A stretch of 64,000 nt of DNA. It comes from Methanobrevibacter gottschalkii DSM 11977. GTDB lineage: Archaea > Methanobacteriota > Methanobacteria > Methanobacteriales > Methanobacteriaceae. Position numbers and translations under genes: made by a program. This document shows, piece by piece, positions 150-27,717 of the stretch. Numbering within the stretch: position 1 is the first letter of the stretch; the number at the start of each line of letters is the position of its first letter. Below the pieces are notes generated by a model. That model worked only from the letters and a program-made list of their open reading frames with translations, was not told where the DNA came from and did not search any database. The stretch is taken from NCBI RefSeq assembly GCF_003814835.1, contig NZ_RKRG01000004.1:1-64000 (forward strand), in the 5' to 3' direction.

Positions 150-649
150 AACTATAAAATATTTAATGATTCAGTATACATTTTCAAATCATTATAATAG
201 ACTTAAATTAAGCAAAACTTCAAGATTTTCCTCATCTTTTTTTAATATATCATTAAGACAATTGAAAGCCAAATCATATTCTTCTAAATATAAATAGCAT
301 GAACTAATCTCGTTTAATATTATAATATTATGAGGATCAACATCCAATACTTTTTTAAAACAATCCATTGCTTGTTCATAATTTTCTAACTCCATGCATG
401 CCAATCCTTTTCTATAATAACAATGTACATCATCAGGATTATTTTTAAGAATTTCACTGAAACATCAAACGATTTCTCCTTTTCAAAAATATAAGCATAA
501 TAAAGCCCTTTAAATGACAAAGCCTCAGCATTATTCTTATCCAAAAACAATATTTTATCAACACATCTAATTGCTTTTTTATTTAAATAATTAGAGCCAT
601 ATGTAATTGATTTATCAATATAATAATTAACTATTCTATCCTTAAACAT
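150..649 (-). pseudogene. TPR protein, decayed copy (TPR-D)
   Basis: Fourth copy of the TPR gene family of this cluster. It starts at the ATG at 649 (protein begins MFKDRIVNYYIDKS) behind a GGGGAT ribosome binding site and follows the intact copy at 816-1721 closely. Near 465 one T of a TT pair is missing compared with the intact copy, which throws the frame off after EKEKSF; the original frame resumes as an open stretch at 404-192. Beyond 192 DNA similarity to the intact copy can be traced to about 150 (region encoding YDESLNIL) through small indels and stops, then fades. The product would have been a cytosolic helical-repeat protein. No C-terminal half is visible, so this is very likely a dead copy. 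Confidence 0.8.
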
Positions 650-815
650 GAAAAATCCCCTATCCATTAAATTAATCCTATTTATTAAATATTTCATTGA
701 AAATATTCTATAATCTTCATTAATTATAAAAAATATATGATTCAAATCAATGCCTTTAAAATAGTTAATAATAAAAATATCTGCAACATATCTATTTTTG
801 ATAATTAAAACAACA

Positions 816-1721
816 TTAACATTGTTTAATTAATTTTTTGACATCAGTTTTCATATTTTCAATCATTTTTTTTGGGAAATTTGGGTATTTTTCCAAATAT
901 TCATCATATACCTTTAATGCATCCTCATATTTCCCCATTACCTCCAATGACTCGCCATAATAACTATAATACGATTCAATTACACCCCAACCATCAAAAT
1001 ATGTTTTAGAAATCTCATCAAAACCCTGTAAAGAATGTTCAAAATCACCAACATAAGCTAATAAATTATATTTTATTGATTTTGAAACAATACAATCGGC
1101 ATTAATATTTAAAGCCAATTCAATATATTTTAATGCATCATCATACATTTCTTGATTTCTATAAACAATAGCCATTTGTAATAATGCATTATCTTCATTA
1201 GGATTTTTTTCAATTATTTTATTTAAAATATTTAATGATTCATCATACATTTCCAAAACATCATAATAAAGACTTAAACTAAGTAATAGTTCAGGATTTT
1301 CCATATCCTCTTTTAATACATCATTAATGGAATTAAAAGCTAAATCATATTCTTCCAAATACAAATAACATGAACTAATGTACCTTAAAACTATTGGATG
1401 ATGAGGATCAACATCCAATACTTTTTTAAAACAATTGATTGCTTGTTCATACTTTTCTAACTCCATGCATGCCAAGCCTTTTCTATAATAACAATGTACA
1501 TCATCAGGATTATTTTTAAGGATTTCACTGAAACATTCAAACGATTTCTCCTTTTCAAAAAGAAAAGCATAATAAAGCCCTTTAAATGACAAAGCCCTAG
1601 CATTATTCTTATCCAAAAACAATATTTTATCAACACAATCAATTGCTTTTTTATTTAAATGATTATGACCATATTCCATCGATTTATCAATATAATAATT
1701 AACTATCCTATCCTTAAACAT
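816..1721 (-). CDS. TPR-repeat protein (TPR-B)
   Basis: Protein of 301 residues made almost entirely of degenerate 34-residue tetratricopeptide repeats (for example NPDDVHCYYRKGLACMELEK, then NPNEDNALLQMAIVYRNQEM), with no signal peptide or membrane segment, so it is predicted to be cytosolic and to bind another protein. It is nearly identical to the gene at 3878-4777 over its whole length. It begins 10 bases after the stop of the small ORF at 1935-1732, which duplicates the C-terminal tail of the adhesin at 4789-9592. The ATG at 1721 is preceded by AGGTGG. The partner is unknown; repeated linkage to the adhesin tail suggests that this tail is the ligand. Confidence 0.85.
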   Translation of the reverse strand: MFKDRIVNYYIDKSMEYGHNHLNKKAIDCVDKILFLDKNNARALSFKGLYYAFLFEKEKSFECFSEILKNNPDDVHCYYRKGLACMELEKYEQAINCFKKVLDVDPHHPIVLRYISSCYLYLEEYDLAFNSINDVLKEDMENPELLLSLSLYYDVLEMYDESLNILNKIIEKNPNEDNALLQMAIVYRNQEMYDDALKYIELALNINADCIVSKSIKYNLLAYVGDFEHSLQGFDEISKTYFDGWGVIESYYSYYGESLEVMGKYEDALKVYDEYLEKYPNFPKKMIENMKTDVKKLIKQC

Positions 1722-1731
1722 GAAAATCCAC

Positions 1732-1935
1732 CTATCCCTTATCTTTTTCTAGTTCATATAAAAATAAATTTATTAATAAGTTTACAGTTTCAATTGATTC
1801 AAAATACAAAGACAAAGCAAATAATTCTTTAATATTAGATTTTACAAACTTTAATACTTCACCTTTACTTTTCGCATCTTTATAATTTTTATATAACTTT
1901 TTTAAATATTTACCCACTTCTTCAGCTGAACCCAT
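1732..1935 (-). CDS. Orphan C-terminal tail of adhesin-like protein
   Basis: This 67-residue ORF (starting MGSAEEVGKYLKKLYKNYKD) matches the last 67 residues of the large adhesin at 4789-8838 with only a few changes, and it is followed in the same way by a TPR gene. The similarity stops abruptly near 1930, just upstream of GSAEEVGKY, and the DNA beyond it (1936-2117) holds no adhesin body, only a 36-codon open stretch at 2090-1980. It is therefore a detached tail carried in a duplicated cassette. It is rich in Lys and Glu, looks alpha-helical and has no export signal. It could be translated from its ATG or be a silent fragment used for recombination. Confidence 0.65.
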   Translation of the reverse strand: MGSAEEVGKYLKKLYKNYKDAKSKGEVLKFVKSNIKELFALSLYFESIETVNLLINLFLYELEKDKG

Positions 1936-2117
1936 ATCATCTGCTCATTGGAACTACGAGTATTTAGTGAGAATAGTATTTAATGAATGGTATTTCCTAC
2001 TTGATAACCATTTGCATTTAATTTTATTCTTGTAGTTATTTCTGTCACAATATTCTTTCTTCTTAAATAAATTACACTAATCCTTAACATTATATGGTTG
2101 TCACATTATAAGAAACT

Positions 2118-3350
2118 TTATAACCTATTTAATCTTTCAGTTTTATCTTTTTTTAAATCTGAATCATTTTCAAAAATTTTAAAAACTTCATCGTATGCTA
2201 AAATTAATTCATCTACTTTATTTAGATTTTCAAGTGCGTCAAATTTTAAATTCCATGTCAATTCACAATCATTTTCAATTTTTAAAATTTCATTGGACAA
2301 ACATAAAACATCATCCCATTTTCTTAAATCACTTAAAATTAGCAATTTCAACTTTAAAAAATCAATACCCTCTGAACATGAATTTAATCCTTTATTAATG
2401 ACAACTAATGCATCATCAAACCTTTTTTTTATGGCGTAAAATTTCAGCATAAAGATTCAATGATAAACAATAGTTAGGATCTATTTTTAAAGCAGATTCA
2501 CAATATTTTAATGATTCATCAAATTTATTTTGATTATAAAGAGACAGGGATAAATTATACAAACACAATACATTATTTTTATCTAATTCTAAACATTTAT
2601 TAGAATAAAAAATTGCTCCATCATATTTTTCCATTGCATTAAGAATAACACTTTTTGTAAGATAAAGATAAGAATCTTTTGGATTAATTTTTAAAGCAAT
2701 ATCAATAGCAGACAACGCTTCATCGTATTTGCCCATTTCATAAAAAATCAATCCTTTGTACAACCAACTATCTTCTTGTCCATCATATCTATTTATACTT
2801 TCATCAATACAGTATAATGCATCATCAAATCTGTCGTTACGGGAAAAAAGTACTCCTATTAATAACCATATATAATATTCATCTGGAGATTGTGATTTAA
2901 CCATTGAAAATAACTTATCAAAATTACTTAAATCATCAGATTTATTTAAAACATAGCATTTAAAATAATAAGCCCATAAATTAGTTGAATCATCTTGCAA
3001 CACCTTATCAAAACATTTCATTGCAATTTTATCCTTTCCTTGAATAGATAATATATTTCCTTTTTGAACTAATAATTCATTATAATCATATCTTTCATCA
3101 AGTAGTAAATCATCAATTATAACCAATAATTCATCCAATGTTCCTAATTTATCATGAATCTCTATCAAATAGATAAAACAAGAATGACCTTGTAATTTTT
3201 CTTTAATAATTTATAAAAAATATCTGATGCATTATCATAATCTCCATTTTTTAAAAATCTCCTAGCATCACGAAATTTCCATTTATTATAAAAATTAAAT
3301 ATATTATTAAAAATTCTTATTTTACTACTCAAAATAAAACCTCCTGACAA
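2118..3350 (-). pseudogene. TPR-repeat protein, two compensating frameshifts (TPR-C)
   Basis: Three overlapping open stretches (3350-3165, 3168-2416, 2450-2118) form one TPR protein of about 410 residues. The first break lies near 3195, where adding one base (AATTACAA to AATTACAAA) joins KKNYK to GHSCFIYLIEIHDK. The second is in the A8 tract at 2430-2423, where losing one A joins LYAEILRHKK to RFDDALVVINKG. The two shifts cancel, so the first and last pieces are in the same frame. The repeats are TPR-like (YEMGKYDEALSAIDIALKIN) but the gene is clearly diverged from the TPR-A/B/D set. It is cytosolic by sequence. Either a broken gene, a phase-variable one, or sequencing error at the homopolymer. 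Confidence 0.75.
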
Positions 3351-3819
3351 TAACTTATTTTTGGAAGCTCACCATCTAAAATTCTAATATTCAACATATA
3401 TCCTATTTATTTTCCAATTGAAATACATTTAATCATTTTATGGATTACTTTTTGAGTATCCCTAGAAATTTACCATCAGGTAACTTTTAAAGCAACATCA
3501 ATTCCCTACATTAAAATTCCCAATTCTTAAAATTACTCCATTAAACATTACTATTCATCATTGATGTATATTCTATACTTTAAATGACTATAATCTTCTC
3601 CATTAAAAAAAATACAATAATAGATAATTCAAATAATTAGAAATATTAAATAGTTTCATCATGGATTTTTCATATTATATTTATTTAAAAATAATGGAAT
3701 TTTACTATTTTCCCCAAAAATTAAATAAAACATACTATCAAAAAATCATTTTTAAAGTCTTATTTGTTCTATAGTATTCAGCCATTTCATTTAAACCATA
3801 TGTTCCAAGTAAATCTGCA
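3351..3819. other. Intergenic stretch without a recognisable gene
   Basis: AT-rich spacer between TPR-C and the adhesin fossil. No ORF with protein-like character is convincing; a short minus-strand open run near 3827-3745 (reading IADLLGTYGLNEMAEYY) may be a gene remnant but I cannot assign it. Confidence 0.4.
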
Positions 3820-3876
3820 ATAATCATTACATAAAGAAACACAAACCGGATCAATATGGAACTAACTCACATCAAA
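3820..3876 (-). pseudogene. Fossil of adhesin C-terminal domain
   Basis: The DNA at 3820-3876 aligns almost base for base with 5896-5952 inside the large adhesin. On the minus strand it reads FDVS, stop, FHIDPVCVSLCND, against FNVTWSRISPVCVSLCND in the intact protein; the Trp codon has become TAG. It lies directly downstream of TPR-A, so a second adhesin C-terminal region once occupied this spot. Only about 19 codons survive. Confidence 0.7.
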
Positions 3877-3877
3877 C

Positions 3878-4777
3878 TTACTTAATCAACTTTAAGGCAT
3901 CTTCCTTCATATTTTCAATCATTTCTTTTGGGAAATTTGGGTATTTTTCCAAATATTCATCATATAAATTTAATGCATCCTCATATTTCCCCATTACCTC
4001 CAATGCACCTCCATAATAAATATAATACAATTCCATTACACCCCAACCATCAAAACATGTTTTAGAAATCTCATCAAAACCCTGTAAAGAATGTTCAAAA
4101 TCACCAACATGAGCTAATAAATTATATTTTATTGATTTTAAAACAATACTATCGACATTAATATTTAAAGCCAATTCAATATATTTTAATGCATCATCAT
4201 ACATTTCTTGATTTTCATAAACAGTAGCCATTTGTAATAATGCATCATTATCATTAGGATTTTTTTCTATTATTTTATTTAAAATATTTAATGATTCATC
4301 ATACATTTCCAAAGCATCATAATAAAGACTTAAACTAAGTAATAGTTCAGGATTTTCCCCATCATCTTTTAATACATCATTAATGGAATTAAAAACTAAA
4401 TCATATTCTCCCAAATACAAATAACATGAACTAATGTACCTTAAAACTATTGGATGATGGGGATCAACATCCAATACTTTTTTAAAACAATCCACTGCTT
4501 GTTCATATTCTATTAACTCCATACATGCCAATCCTTTTCTATAATAACAATGTACATCATCATGATTATTTTTAAGAATTTCACTGAAACATTCAAACGA
4601 TTTCTCCTTTTCAAAAAGAAAAGCATAATAAAGCCCTTTAAATGACAAAGCCCTAGCATTATTCTTATCAAAGAACAATATTTTATCAACACATCTAATT
4701 GCTTTTTTATTTAAATGATTATGACCATATTCCATCGATTTATCAATATAATAATTAACTATCCTATCCTTAAACAT
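3878..4777 (-). CDS. TPR-repeat protein (TPR-A), partner gene of the adhesin
   Basis: Protein of 299 residues, a chain of TPR motifs from about residue 15 to the C-terminus with no signal peptide or membrane helix. It begins 11 bases after the adhesin stop at 4789, with AGGTGG lying in the gap, so the two genes are probably co-transcribed and translationally coupled. Near-identical paralogue at 816-1721, decayed paralogue at 150-649. TPR proteins are scaffolds that bind peptides; since the neighbouring adhesin ends in a membrane segment and a charged, probably cytoplasmic tail, I infer that TPR-A may bind that tail. No enzymatic motif is visible. Confidence 0.85.
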   Translation of the reverse strand: MFKDRIVNYYIDKSMEYGHNHLNKKAIRCVDKILFFDKNNARALSFKGLYYAFLFEKEKSFECFSEILKNNHDDVHCYYRKGLACMELIEYEQAVDCFKKVLDVDPHHPIVLRYISSCYLYLGEYDLVFNSINDVLKDDGENPELLLSLSLYYDALEMYDESLNILNKIIEKNPNDNDALLQMATVYENQEMYDDALKYIELALNINVDSIVLKSIKYNLLAHVGDFEHSLQGFDEISKTCFDGWGVMELYYIYYGGALEVMGKYEDALNLYDEYLEKYPNFPKEMIENMKEDALKLIK

Positions 4778-4788
4778 GAAAAATCCAC

Positions 4789-7700
4789 CTATCCCTTATC
4801 TTTTTCTATTTCATATAAAAACAAATTTATTAATAAATTTACAGTTTCAATTGATTCAAAATACAAAGACAAAGCAAATAATTCTTTAATATTAGATTTT
4901 ACAAACTTTAATACTTCACCTTTACTTTTCGCATCTTTATAATTTTTATATAATTCTTTTAAATATTTACCAACTTCTTCAGCTGAACCAAGATTATCCA
5001 TATCCTTTGGACCTTTTCCACTAGGAATAGGTCCTATTTTTATTTTAAAATTTATATTATCCTTATTAACATTAGAATTATATCTTTTATACTTATTATT
5101 AAAATTTCTATTATTTTTAAGTTGTGAAATAATATAATCATCTGATGATTTACCATCTAATACTAATTTAGGAGGATTTATTATATTTGCAGGATAAGTA
5201 TTTTCATAAATTGGAATATCAGGATAATCCTTATAATATGGATTAAATAAGCTTGCAAAGTTCATCCATACTTCATTAACCTGTTCAGGGAATAAAAACA
5301 TGATAATTGGCAATGATATTAACATGATTGGAGCAATTGAAATTTCCCCAAACAATAATCCAATTTCAGATCCTTCAATTAAAGCTGATCCAATTCCACT
5401 CATTTCTAAACCAATGAATTCGACCTCCCCAATTAACGTTGCAGATATTACTCCAATACCAAAAATATTTTTTAAATCATTGAATTCTCTGCCCATATTA
5501 TTTAATAGATTATTTCCATATTTCCATGCATTTTCTGTTATGTTATCATGATAACATGGCATTGTCCCAAGTAAACCATAATAACTGAAATAGTCCCGAA
5601 CAATTCCAGTCTTCAAATCTAAAAACAACAAAGTATTACCGTCATTCTCACATTTAATAAATATATATCCGTTACTTGTAAAAATTTCCATTGTTTCATT
5701 ATTAAAATAACTTTCAATTAAACCAAGAGTAACACTACCTATTGTCGTATCATTCCAAATATTATTACCGACCAACTGCTCCACCAGACTGAAACTGAAA
5801 CTTGTTGCAAAATTAAACTTCCAAACATCACTAATATTTCCTATCGCTTCCCGACCCATTCCATGATCAGACTCCCCAGTAACATATAAACAATTATAAT
5901 CATTACACAAAGAAACACAAACAGGACTAATACGAGACCAAGTCACATTAAATTTAATTGCAGATTCATCAGCCACACGGTCATTTTCATAAATCACTAA
6001 CAAAGAAGTTAAAAAAGTACCATAAGCGGCTTTCATCAAACCTGGAGCATATAATTCTTTTTGATTTAACCAAAATTGCAAATCATCATTAGTTAAATTA
6101 TCTTTAACAATTGCAAAACTGCGCATACCTTCATAACCAATACTAATATTATTTTCATCTTCAATATCAGTGTAATAAATATTACTTATACGATGAGCAT
6201 AACTAGATGGAGGCTTTAAAAGTTTATGAACTCCATTATAATCAAAGTTAATATCTGGAGTCATATCACCATGAAAATCAATAGTCATATCAATAAAATC
6301 AATGAAAAAACCTTTATAATTTTTAACAAAATTTAAATCAGAGTCTGTTAAATCATAATATAATTTAATATAATTTAAAAATCTATTATAAACAGAATTA
6401 TAATCTCTAAAATCAATATTAGCTGCTTTTGCAAAACTGAAATAATAACCATTAGGTGCCCAAACACCTTCTTTCGTACTGGCAAAAACAGTATCCAGCA
6501 ACTTAATAGCTTCAAAAACATTTGTGGAATAATTATTTTTAAATTTTTGATAAAAAAGATTGTGGATATTAATTTCATCTAAGATTTCACCATTAACTAT
6601 TACATAAATTTTACCAGTAAATAATCCTGTTTCAGACCAGCAAAATGTAATCCAAGAAGCATTATTGCTGAATGGAATCTGATAAGTCTTATTTACAAAA
6701 TAATTATTTTCAAAATCCCATGCAGAAGAAAATAGCATTATATCAATTGTAACCTTTTTATTAAAAGAGTTTAGTATTTTTACATTGTCAAAAATAGACA
6801 TGACAGTGATATTTTCATGGTTTTTAAATAAATCATTTAATTCAAAATCAACAAAAGATTTACCCTCATGCAAATATGAAATATTGGATTTTTTAGCTCC
6901 ATCCCCATTAAATACTCCAATAAAAGATTTTAAATTATTTGGAATATAACCTTTATATGACAAATCATTTCCTATATTATTATAAGTTAAATCAACATAA
7001 AATTTAGCTCTTTCAATATTGTTATTTTCATTTATTTTATAAGAAGATGAAAATAAATGTGCAACCATCCAAGAGTTCATAATTACATTTCCAGTAGCAT
7101 TATAAATGTTAGCAAGAATAGAACGATTAATAGAAATTTTAGGAGTGTTTTCACCCCACCAATTATCATTAATTACATAATCACTGTTTGCTTCTGAGTA
7201 AAAATCATATTGAGAATTATCACATAATCTATTCAAGTAACATGAATCATTATACGATAAAAGAGAGGTATCTAAAACAAAACCACATAATATATTATCA
7301 TGAATATTATTAAAAGCATAAGTATTATTAACTGAGACTCTTAAAAATACTCCATGATTATTATTTTTAAATTCATTGTGAGTTACATGAGAATTAGATG
7401 AAACAACATACAATCCAGCATTAAAATTAGAAACATTGTTAGAATCAATACTTACATTTGAACAGATAACATACAATCCAATACCATTTAAATTGTTTTT
7501 ATTGGTTATTCTATTATTAACAATAGAAATATTATTTGAAGTAATATTTGTAACAACGATTCCACCAGCACCCGTATCAGAATTTAATGAAATATTATTA
7601 TTAAAAACCATTAGATTATCTGATTTTCTAATAGCAACACCAGACATGAAATTTAAAAATTTATCTGAATCAATAGAATTATAAGCAACCAAAGTATTTT

Positions 7701-8838
7701 TATCATCATCTATTTCTATAGATTTAACCACATTGATAAATTGATTATTAATTACAGAAACATTATCTGCATGATAAATAACAACACCATGCTCCGAATC
7801 TTTAATTTTAAATCCATAAATAACACTATTACTTCCACCACCAGTAATTCCAATAACTGGACGGGAAGGATCCCTACTTGTTAAAGTAGCATTAATCCCA
7901 ATCATAGTAACGAATTTATTAACAGTTAATGGTTCATTGTATAAACCTTCACTAATTTTAATTATATCACCATTATGGGTATTTGAATCATCAATTGCTG
8001 ATTGGATTGTTGTAAATCCTCTTCCTGAATTCAAATTACCTATTTTTTCAAAAATATAATTACAAGTTTTTGTTTCGCTTTTATGACCATTAAAATCAAT
8101 TGAATAAAATTTTAATAATGTTGTCCTTGAAATATTCAATAAATTTTCATACAATTTAAAATTGGATTCATCTAACGAATAATAAATTTTAGGATTGGCA
8201 TCAAGATTATCCCAACTGGACAAATTAACAATAATAGAAGAATCATATAAGTCTGAACCAAAATTACTCCAAACAACAGGACAATTATTGTCAATCAAAT
8301 AATGTTCATGGAAAATACTCCCACTACCATTACTATAATATAAATCATAGATCCCATTTGTTAAAATAAATGATACTGATTTATCAGATTGACTCCAACT
8401 ATCATTATTCAAACAATACTTAATCAATTTAGCATTATTGATATTTAATGATAAATTTAAATATGACTTATTGTAAAATCCCCCATCATAATTCACAGTT
8501 GGATTGAATGATATTACATTAACATTAATCTTTTTACTAATACTTGCATATGGACTTTTAGTAAATGAAACAATCACATTGTATAATCCCGGTTTTTCAT
8601 CAATTTTGATTTTGGCTCTACCCTTATTATCACTAACAACATTTATAATTTTATCATTAATTTTAAAAGTGATTGTTTGCCCATTTAGAAATTTATTATT
8701 TTTAGTGTCTTTTAAAGTAGCATATAAATAAGAATTATCTTCCCCATAATTACATGTTAAATCATTTACTGTTAAACTTGTAGGGATACTTTTAACTGTT
8801 ACTGTTATTGTTTTTTTTGCTTGTAACATAATTAGCAT
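4789..8838 (-). CDS. Adhesin-like protein, main part (beta-helix, novel domain, TM, tail)
   Basis: Open stretch of 1349 codons forming the downstream part of a surface protein whose N-terminus is at 8792-9592. After a third Ig-like domain (to about residue 110) and a Cys-containing region comes a NosD-like parallel beta-helix (about 280-600; GFTTIQSAIDDSNTHNGDII, then PbH1 repeats such as NNVSNFNAGLYVV). A long unassigned domain follows (about 750-1120, with VCVSLCNDYNC and GESDHGMGREA), then a hydrophobic region (about 1150-1210), then a charged tail of about 130 residues ending in EIEKDKG. The last 67 residues recur as an orphan ORF at 1732-1935. The ATG at 8838 is probably not a real start; see the A8 frameshift at 8811-8818. 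Expected to be cell-surface anchored. Confidence 0.75.
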   Translation of the reverse strand: MLIMLQAKKTITVTVKSIPTSLTVNDLTCNYGEDNSYLYATLKDTKNNKFLNGQTITFKINDKIINVVSDNKGRAKIKIDEKPGLYNVIVSFTKSPYASISKKINVNVISFNPTVNYDGGFYNKSYLNLSLNINNAKLIKYCLNNDSWSQSDKSVSFILTNGIYDLYYSNGSGSIFHEHYLIDNNCPVVWSNFGSDLYDSSIIVNLSSWDNLDANPKIYYSLDESNFKLYENLLNISRTTLLKFYSIDFNGHKSETKTCNYIFEKIGNLNSGRGFTTIQSAIDDSNTHNGDIIKISEGLYNEPLTVNKFVTMIGINATLTSRDPSRPVIGITGGGSNSVIYGFKIKDSEHGVVIYHADNVSVINNQFINVVKSIEIDDDKNTLVAYNSIDSDKFLNFMSGVAIRKSDNLMVFNNNISLNSDTGAGGIVVTNITSNNISIVNNRITNKNNLNGIGLYVICSNVSIDSNNVSNFNAGLYVVSSNSHVTHNEFKNNNHGVFLRVSVNNTYAFNNIHDNILCGFVLDTSLLSYNDSCYLNRLCDNSQYDFYSEANSDYVINDNWWGENTPKISINRSILANIYNATGNVIMNSWMVAHLFSSSYKINENNNIERAKFYVDLTYNNIGNDLSYKGYIPNNLKSFIGVFNGDGAKKSNISYLHEGKSFVDFELNDLFKNHENITVMSIFDNVKILNSFNKKVTIDIMLFSSAWDFENNYFVNKTYQIPFSNNASWITFCWSETGLFTGKIYVIVNGEILDEINIHNLFYQKFKNNYSTNVFEAIKLLDTVFASTKEGVWAPNGYYFSFAKAANIDFRDYNSVYNRFLNYIKLYYDLTDSDLNFVKNYKGFFIDFIDMTIDFHGDMTPDINFDYNGVHKLLKPPSSYAHRISNIYYTDIEDENNISIGYEGMRSFAIVKDNLTNDDLQFWLNQKELYAPGLMKAAYGTFLTSLLVIYENDRVADESAIKFNVTWSRISPVCVSLCNDYNCLYVTGESDHGMGREAIGNISDVWKFNFATSFSFSLVEQLVGNNIWNDTTIGSVTLGLIESYFNNETMEIFTSNGYIFIKCENDGNTLLFLDLKTGIVRDYFSYYGLLGTMPCYHDNITENAWKYGNNLLNNMGREFNDLKNIFGIGVISATLIGEVEFIGLEMSGIGSALIEGSEIGLLFGEISIAPIMLISLPIIMFLFPEQVNEVWMNFASLFNPYYKDYPDIPIYENTYPANIINPPKLVLDGKSSDDYIISQLKNNRNFNNKYKRYNSNVNKDNINFKIKIGPIPSGKGPKDMDNLGSAEEVGKYLKELYKNYKDAKSKGEVLKFVKSNIKELFALSLYFESIETVNLLINLFLYEIEKDKG

Positions 8839-9592
8839 TTGTAAATGAGATGGCTGTAGGGTATGTTTTTGGTTTTGCAGTAATTGTTAGACACGCAACT
8901 CCTTTAGAATTCGTTTTCTTAATATATTTTTTACCACTGAAATTAAAAACAACTGTTTTATTAACAATTGATTTGCCTTTTTTATTTTTTAGTGTTGCTT
9001 TTAATTTATTGTTTGTATCACCATATGTAAAAACAAGATTATTGGCTGTTAATGTTGTTGGCATTGCTTTTACTGTAACTTTTGCTGTTTTACTGCTGCT
9101 TTTATAACCACTTGCTTTGAAAGAAAATTTCACCGAATAGGTTCCAGGCCCTTTTTTAACATCCCAACTAACACAACCTTTGGAATCAGTTGTACGAGAG
9201 TAAGTTTTACCAGAATAAGTAACAGTGATCTTTTTTCCAGATAAAACTTTACCATTTGAATTTTTCAAATAAGCTTTAACACTTGTACCATCTTGAAAAT
9301 ATTTAGTTATATCTTTTGCAGTAATCGATGTTTTAACTGTAGATTTAACTTTTTTCACAACATTACCGGAATAAACATCTGTAAAGTTAATATCTGATGA
9401 ATTAACAACATTATTATCAATATAATAGTTATCTGATGAAACTTCAATAGTATCCGAGCACAATTCTCCTACTTGACAATCAACACTTAAAGTATCATTT
9501 TCAACTACATTATCTGAAACTGCACAAACACAGTCCAAACAAATAAAAAAACAAAAAGTCAACAATAAAACTGCTTTATAAAACTTCTTCAC
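8792..9592 (-). CDS. Adhesin-like protein, N-terminal part (signal peptide, Ig-like domains)
   Basis: A 266-codon stretch starting MKKFYKAVLLLTFCFFICLD, a clear Sec signal peptide (about residues 1-24), followed by an acidic linker and two bacterial-Ig-like domains (about 90-170 and 175-260; SGKKITVTYSGKTYSRTTDS) of the kind found repeatedly in Methanobrevibacter surface proteins. The frame ends in a spurious tail (KKNNNSNS) just after an A8 run at 8818-8811. Removing one A gives SKKTITVTVKS and continues without a break into the 4789-8838 stretch, for a protein of about 1600 residues. As it stands the product is a secreted two-domain fragment without an anchor. Confidence 0.75.
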   Translation of the reverse strand: MKKFYKAVLLLTFCFFICLDCVCAVSDNVVENDTLSVDCQVGELCSDTIEVSSDNYYIDNNVVNSSDINFTDVYSGNVVKKVKSTVKTSITAKDITKYFQDGTSVKAYLKNSNGKVLSGKKITVTYSGKTYSRTTDSKGCVSWDVKKGPGTYSVKFSFKASGYKSSSKTAKVTVKAMPTTLTANNLVFTYGDTNNKLKATLKNKKGKSIVNKTVVFNFSGKKYIKKTNSKGVACLTITAKPKTYPTAISFTNANYVTSKKNNNSNS

Positions 9593-26829: not shown

Positions 26830-27717
26830 ATGAAAAAAATCTATTTTATTTTACCCATCCTAGCCGGAATAATGTTTGGATCCGGTGGAGTATTTGTTCG
26901 AACATTAATGGTAAATGGAATTGATTCAACAACGCTTCTTTTTTTAAGGTTTTCAATAGCAATAATCCCCATAATGATAGCAATTTTAGTAACTGATAAA
27001 AGTTTGTTAAAAATAGATTTAATAGACATTTCATTATTTTTAGTTTGTGGAATATGTATTGTAGGACTTAATTTGTGCTACAACGAATCAATGGGAAATA
27101 TTCCCCTTTCATTAGCTGCAGTTTTATTATCACTTGCACCAATTTATGTCATTATAATTGCTTATTTTACATTTAAAGAAAAAATTACAAGAAAAAAAAT
27201 AATTTGTATGGCATTAGCCATATTTGGTTGTATTCTAATGACTGGTGTTTTGGAAACTAGTTTAAGCAACATTCCATTTTACGGAATCACTGCAGGTATT
27301 GGTGCGGGATTATTCTGGGCGATTTATTTAATGGCTTCTAAAAAATCAATTGAAAATGGAAAACACACATTTACAATACTTATTTATTCAATTACAATTA
27401 TTTCAATGGGATTGCTTCCATTTACAAACTTTGGACAAATCACAAATTTCATTTCAATTAATCCCATTTTAGTTATAATATTCTTAATAATGCACTCAAC
27501 ATTTTCATTTGCCCTTCCATATATTTTCTCAACTGTGAGTTTAGAGCATATAGATTCAGGAATAGCTTCAATATTATTATCTGGAGCAGAACCGTTTGCA
27601 GCACTTATATTTGGATTAATATTCTACTCAGAAATTCCAACATTTCTGATGTTTTGCGGATTTATATTGACTATCATTGCAATGATGGCGTTAAGTAGAA
27701 AAGAAGAAATCAAATAA
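26830..27717 (+). CDS. EamA/DMT-family transporter
   Basis: 295 residues with ten membrane helices in two EamA halves (start MKKIYFILPILAGIMFGSGG; second half ITAGIGAGLFWAIYLMASKK). Members of the drug/metabolite transporter superfamily export amino acids, nucleosides or other metabolites. I use the ATG at 26830, since the longer open frame lacks conservation-like character and runs through the promoter. It is followed by a 289-base spacer without a gene. Confidence 0.85.
   Translation: MKKIYFILPILAGIMFGSGGVFVRTLMVNGIDSTTLLFLRFSIAIIPIMIAILVTDKSLLKIDLIDISLFLVCGICIVGLNLCYNESMGNIPLSLAAVLLSLAPIYVIIIAYFTFKEKITRKKIICMALAIFGCILMTGVLETSLSNIPFYGITAGIGAGLFWAIYLMASKKSIENGKHTFTILIYSITIISMGLLPFTNFGQITNFISINPILVIIFLIMHSTFSFALPYIFSTVSLEHIDSGIASILLSGAEPFAALIFGLIFYSEIPTFLMFCGFILTIIAMMALSRKEEIK

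Follow-up and report, generated by a model that had tools for sequence, protein, structure and literature searches.

The gene for a large surface protein of Methanobrevibacter gottschalkii DSM 11977 is split in the assembled sequence by a frame break at a run of eight A residues. The reading favored here, with a probability of about 0.55, is a real, recent loss-of-function frameshift that arose by slippage within a decaying gene array. The tract is lineage-specific, the break is recent, and the neighborhood of the gene is in decay. The 64,000 nucleotides analyzed (the window) are positions 1 to 64,000 of contig NZ_RKRG01000004.1, which has a GC content of 30% and belongs to a 1.88-Mb draft genome of six contigs (G000).

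The A8 tract and the frame break

Eight A directly follow AGC on the coding (−) strand, at positions 8811–8818 (AGC AAAAAAAA C), and positions 8810–8819 of the + strand read g-tttttttt-g. With eight A, the frame continues as S-K-K-N-N-N-S-N-S-stop and ends eight codons past the tract, whereas seven A would give S-K-K-T-I-T-V-T-V, in which case 9592..4792 comprises exactly 1600 codons. Beyond the tract, the frame stays open across 1339 codons, without a further stop or indel. An ORF of 1349 residues overlaps the end of the 266-residue ORF in a different frame. Sequence and ORFs match in full the original prediction of an A8 frameshift that splits a large surface protein, including its 1600-residue product at seven A and its secreted fragment of 266 residues with a stop eight residues on. 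The parts of the gene are as follows:

8811..8818, − strand: A8 tract, site of the frame change, from the sequence and ORFs; relatives have AAAAAG there
8792..9592, − strand: 5′ fragment, 266 aa, with a signal-like N terminus and Ig-like (Big_1-type) repeats; ends 8 codons past the tract
4789..8838, − strand: 3′ fragment, an open frame with Ig-like, CHB_HEX_C_1-like, and β-helix-type regions, a conserved core, and a variable C terminus
4792..5301, − strand: C-terminal 170 residues; related C termini adjoin related TPR genes in other genomes

No other A run in the 4.8-kb gene reaches the length of the A8 tract (there are nine A6 runs and no A7), which is more in keeping with slippage, or an error in homopolymer sequencing, than with a random indel. 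A programmed −1 ribosomal frameshift is ruled out, as a −1 shift at A AAA AAC leads directly to Q-stop.

The site in relatives and the decay of neighboring genes

Genus searches recovered orthologues in five Methanobrevibacter-type genomes (G018, G066, G068, G079, and G080) and one paralogue within the M. gottschalkii genome itself. All six aligned relatives have AGT AAA AAG in frame at this position, with an interrupted run of five A. The exact tract site occurs in one of 138 family genomes, the source genome itself, and a scan of viral contigs found neither relatives of the gene nor a copy of the tract. Because AAAAAG is present in six of six relatives, the uninterrupted tract is specific to this lineage; having arisen there, it is not conserved as a switch and is no programmed site either.

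Downstream of the tract, comparison with G018 and with G080 gives a dN/dS of 0.20 each, and the value for the intact pair G018–G080 is 0.198. By calculation, ~4% of random substitutions would yield a stop, and the 1339 intact codons allow only ~0.5–1.8% neutral divergence since the break, a bound that assumes neutral decay with indels at 0–10% of substitutions. Since dN/dS resembles that of the intact pair and no second lesion is present, the break is recent, or not present in the organism at all. Those two observations agree no less with a sequencing error or with a functional switch.

Other members of the family have been damaged in different ways. The orthologue in G079, a sister species, has a frameshift of its own, a 1-base deletion, together with a nonsense codon; the paralogue (C1:636085) has lost ~320 bases, including the signal peptide, and its leader is now out of frame; and G009, G004, and G012 retain mere remnants of the surface-protein core. 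Loss is recurrent in this surface-protein family, mostly without tract slippage. Directly downstream of the split gene lies an array of genes for TPR proteins:

3878..4777, − strand: TPR protein, 299 aa, intact; candidate immunity-like partner of the C terminus
3820..3879, − strand: remnant of 20 residues, matching a stretch of the surface-protein core at 70% identity
2118..3350, − strand: second TPR gene, in three pieces, with breaks near 3170 and at an A8 tract (2423–2430)
1735..1944, − strand: displaced copy of the surface protein's final 69–70 residues, with 94% identity across 69 aa
816..1721, − strand: second TPR partner copy, 301 aa, intact, 89% identical, with an in-frame A8 at 866–873
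186..649, − strand: third copy of the TPR partner, disrupted by a 1-base deletion that lies outside homopolymers and by further indels

Two TPR genes of the array thus carry several frameshifts, some of them outside homopolymers, and the locus is undergoing one-way decay.

Readings of the frame break

Runs of A were surveyed in ~340 kb of the genome, sampled in stretches. Runs of this length are no rarity: six A8 tracts lie inside ORFs of at least 150 aa within the contig's first 80 kb, and across the sample, tracts of A8 or longer are mostly found within intact ORFs. One intact gene with an A8 has it at window position 27192. Compared with synonymous shuffling of the same sample, adhesin-like genes hold A8 at chance level (6 observed versus 5.4 ± 1.9 expected) and are depleted in A7 (16 versus 25.4 ± 3.7). 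Other genes are depleted in A8 (28 versus 44.5 ± 4.4) and in runs of at least A9 (3 versus 14.3 ± 2.4). Long A runs are generally avoided in genes, without enrichment in surface proteins, which is the opposite of a genome that uses such runs as switches.

In the favored reading, the AAAAAG of the orthologues would have lost its interrupting G in this lineage, leaving a plain A run, and one replication slip would then have added a single A and silenced the gene, an order of events that we infer. Translation would yield only the secreted 266-residue N-terminal stub, and the remainder, lacking a signal peptide, would be unable to reach the surface. The effector half would be silenced while two TPR partner copies remain intact in the decaying array. 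The closest precedent is inlA of Listeria monocytogenes, in which natural truncations arise in a 5′ poly-A run, A6 changes to A7 at ~5.5e-7, and the interrupted form A2GA4 changes at <3e-10 (PMC2831843). As in inlA, the surface-protein gene would be inactivated by a single-base change within a short run of A, and related alleles carry an interrupting G, which stabilizes the run. Unlike inlA, for which population data exist and in which the tract lies right where the gene begins, the present case is one genome with the tract ~260 codons in (PMC2831843). As an ordinary slippage lesion, the A8 frameshift would warn against taking each A8 as a switch in genomes of 30% GC.

Sequencing error and polymerase slippage, both named as alternatives in the original prediction, still stand as candidates. 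That the true tract contains seven A, with an intact gene and an A8 produced by sequencing or assembly, is unlikely but deserves serious consideration. A single-base homopolymer change in an otherwise perfect frame with normal dN/dS is what such an error would look like, and the locus lies 4–10 kb from the contig end of a six-contig draft, beside near-identical TPR copies. However, the A8–A9 tracts of other genes in the 340-kb sample are in frame, the candidate split pairs tested elsewhere in it are different genes rather than frameshifts, and clear breaks turned up in this array alone, several of them outside homopolymers. Frameshift errors throughout the assembly are themselves unlikely, as split pairs with family matches proved to be distinct neighboring genes; the scan detects only fragments of at least 60 aa, and this verdict covers pairs with family matches, not some small pairs lacking them. 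A different way to keep the gene in use would be transcriptional slippage at the A8, producing some frame-restored mRNA and partial expression (a “pseudo-pseudogene”). Such slippage is known at bacterial runs of nine A and has been inferred for eight A in some IS elements (PMC1088944), and the depletion of long A runs in other genes is consistent with slippery runs being harmful. Nevertheless, an unconserved tract is no programmed site, the ribosomal route ends in the stop described above, and evidence for archaeal RNA polymerase at A8 length was not found; this explanation is improbable.

The original prediction of a phase-variable locus, in which reversible A7/A8 slippage would turn the surface protein alternately on and off within a population, also fares poorly; it is not supported and is held to be improbable. 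The product is a surface protein, the tract lies within the first sixth of the gene, the change from A8 to A7 switches the frame as in a contingency locus, and the allele would be an off state with an intact downstream frame. In addition, the neighboring TPR gene has another A8 where its frame breaks, and poly-A tracts of 6–7 are hypermutable in Listeria (PMC2831843). Against this stand the absence of the tract from all six relatives and of any A8 enrichment in adhesin-like genes; the TPR gene is broken elsewhere too and so offers no one-step switch, and other family members were lost through unrelated lesions. A search of the available literature for phase variation in Methanobrevibacter adhesin-like proteins found none. 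A homopolymer phase switch of a methanogen that turns off a secreted effector-like surface protein and leaves its partner genes intact is very improbable; if true, cells would alternate between armed and unarmed-but-protected states. Taken together, AAAAAG in six relatives and the decaying neighbor genes make recent loss of the gene through slippage look likelier than reversible switching.

The exchangeable C terminus and its partner genes

The N-terminal part of the surface protein carries Ig-like repeats, to which the orthologues add CHB_HEX_C_1 and right-handed β-helix regions. The orthologues can be aligned to approximately residue 1185, beyond which their C termini differ, and the kind of gene downstream matches the C terminus: a TPR gene here and in G073, G080:C5, G042:C105, and G016:C7, and a gene for a 256–272-aa protein in G018, G079, G080:C14, and G004. 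Within the window, the C-terminus copy at 1735–1944 and the TPR copy at 816–1721 form a displaced cassette. In other genomes, four tandem TPR copies are found in G082:C49, and a cluster with both partner types in G080:C16.

A constant N-terminal part with exchangeable C termini, and a C terminus that travels with its downstream gene amid displaced cassettes and partner arrays, are features of polymorphic toxins. Judged from the sequence, the gene resembles a polymorphic toxin in its organization, with a constant core, an exchangeable C terminus, a cognate downstream gene, and duplicated C-terminus/partner cassettes. The C terminus has no Pfam match above the cut-off and no PADLOC match, and no toxin domain was found in it; its structure model is poor (mean pLDDT of 43), too poor for a fold search. 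Toxin and immunity functions of the C-terminus/TPR pair are putative. The earlier label of adhesin is incomplete, as the C terminus makes up, with the gene downstream of it, an exchangeable cassette that resembles those of polymorphic toxins.

Similar to known polymorphic toxin systems (PMC3482391; archaeal cases in PMC8416519), a long secreted protein with an exchangeable C terminus is followed directly by a partner gene, and displaced C-terminus/partner copies and partner arrays occur (PMC3482391). Unlike those systems, no recognizable toxin domain is present here, and the TPR/membrane partners are only putative immunity proteins (PMC3482391). The VARTIG modules of Thermococcales likewise consist of an Ig-domain surface protein followed by variable matching genes, with no known toxin fold, but they belong to another archaeal order, and the present proteins combine a conserved β-helix-containing core with a variable C terminus (PMC8416519). 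The proteins also resemble the adhesin-like proteins of Methanobrevibacter and Methanosphaera, which are large secreted Ig-like/β-helix proteins of gut methanogens, in a paper that is silent on frameshifts, toxins, and phase variation (PMC11532034). Among gut methanogens, large surface proteins that combine exchangeable C termini with matching genes downstream resemble an archaeal system of the polymorphic-toxin type. This neighborhood is of more interest than the frameshift, and in such a system a silenced effector with a retained partner would be a natural evolutionary step.

Window positions 186–9592 (−) and loci L041, L042, L045, and L077–L085 represent this gut-methanogen surface-protein family, with its polymorphic-toxin-like layout of core, exchangeable C terminus, matching gene, and displaced cassettes. 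In one of them, L081 (G082:C49:12591–16462), the four tandem genes of the TPR partner type are flanked by sugar-nucleotide-type genes, and the only evident trace of a surface protein of this family beside them is a 31-residue core-like match just upstream. In G018, G080, G066, and G068, the orthologue adjoins a common gene set (L045 639–7230, L042, and L044), one gene of which matches PHROG tail fiber families, and these orthologues are possibly provirus-borne. The M. gottschalkii genome also encodes a barnase-type ribonuclease followed by an overlapping barstar-type gene (L072 12215–12896; G000:C1 ~432215–432896).
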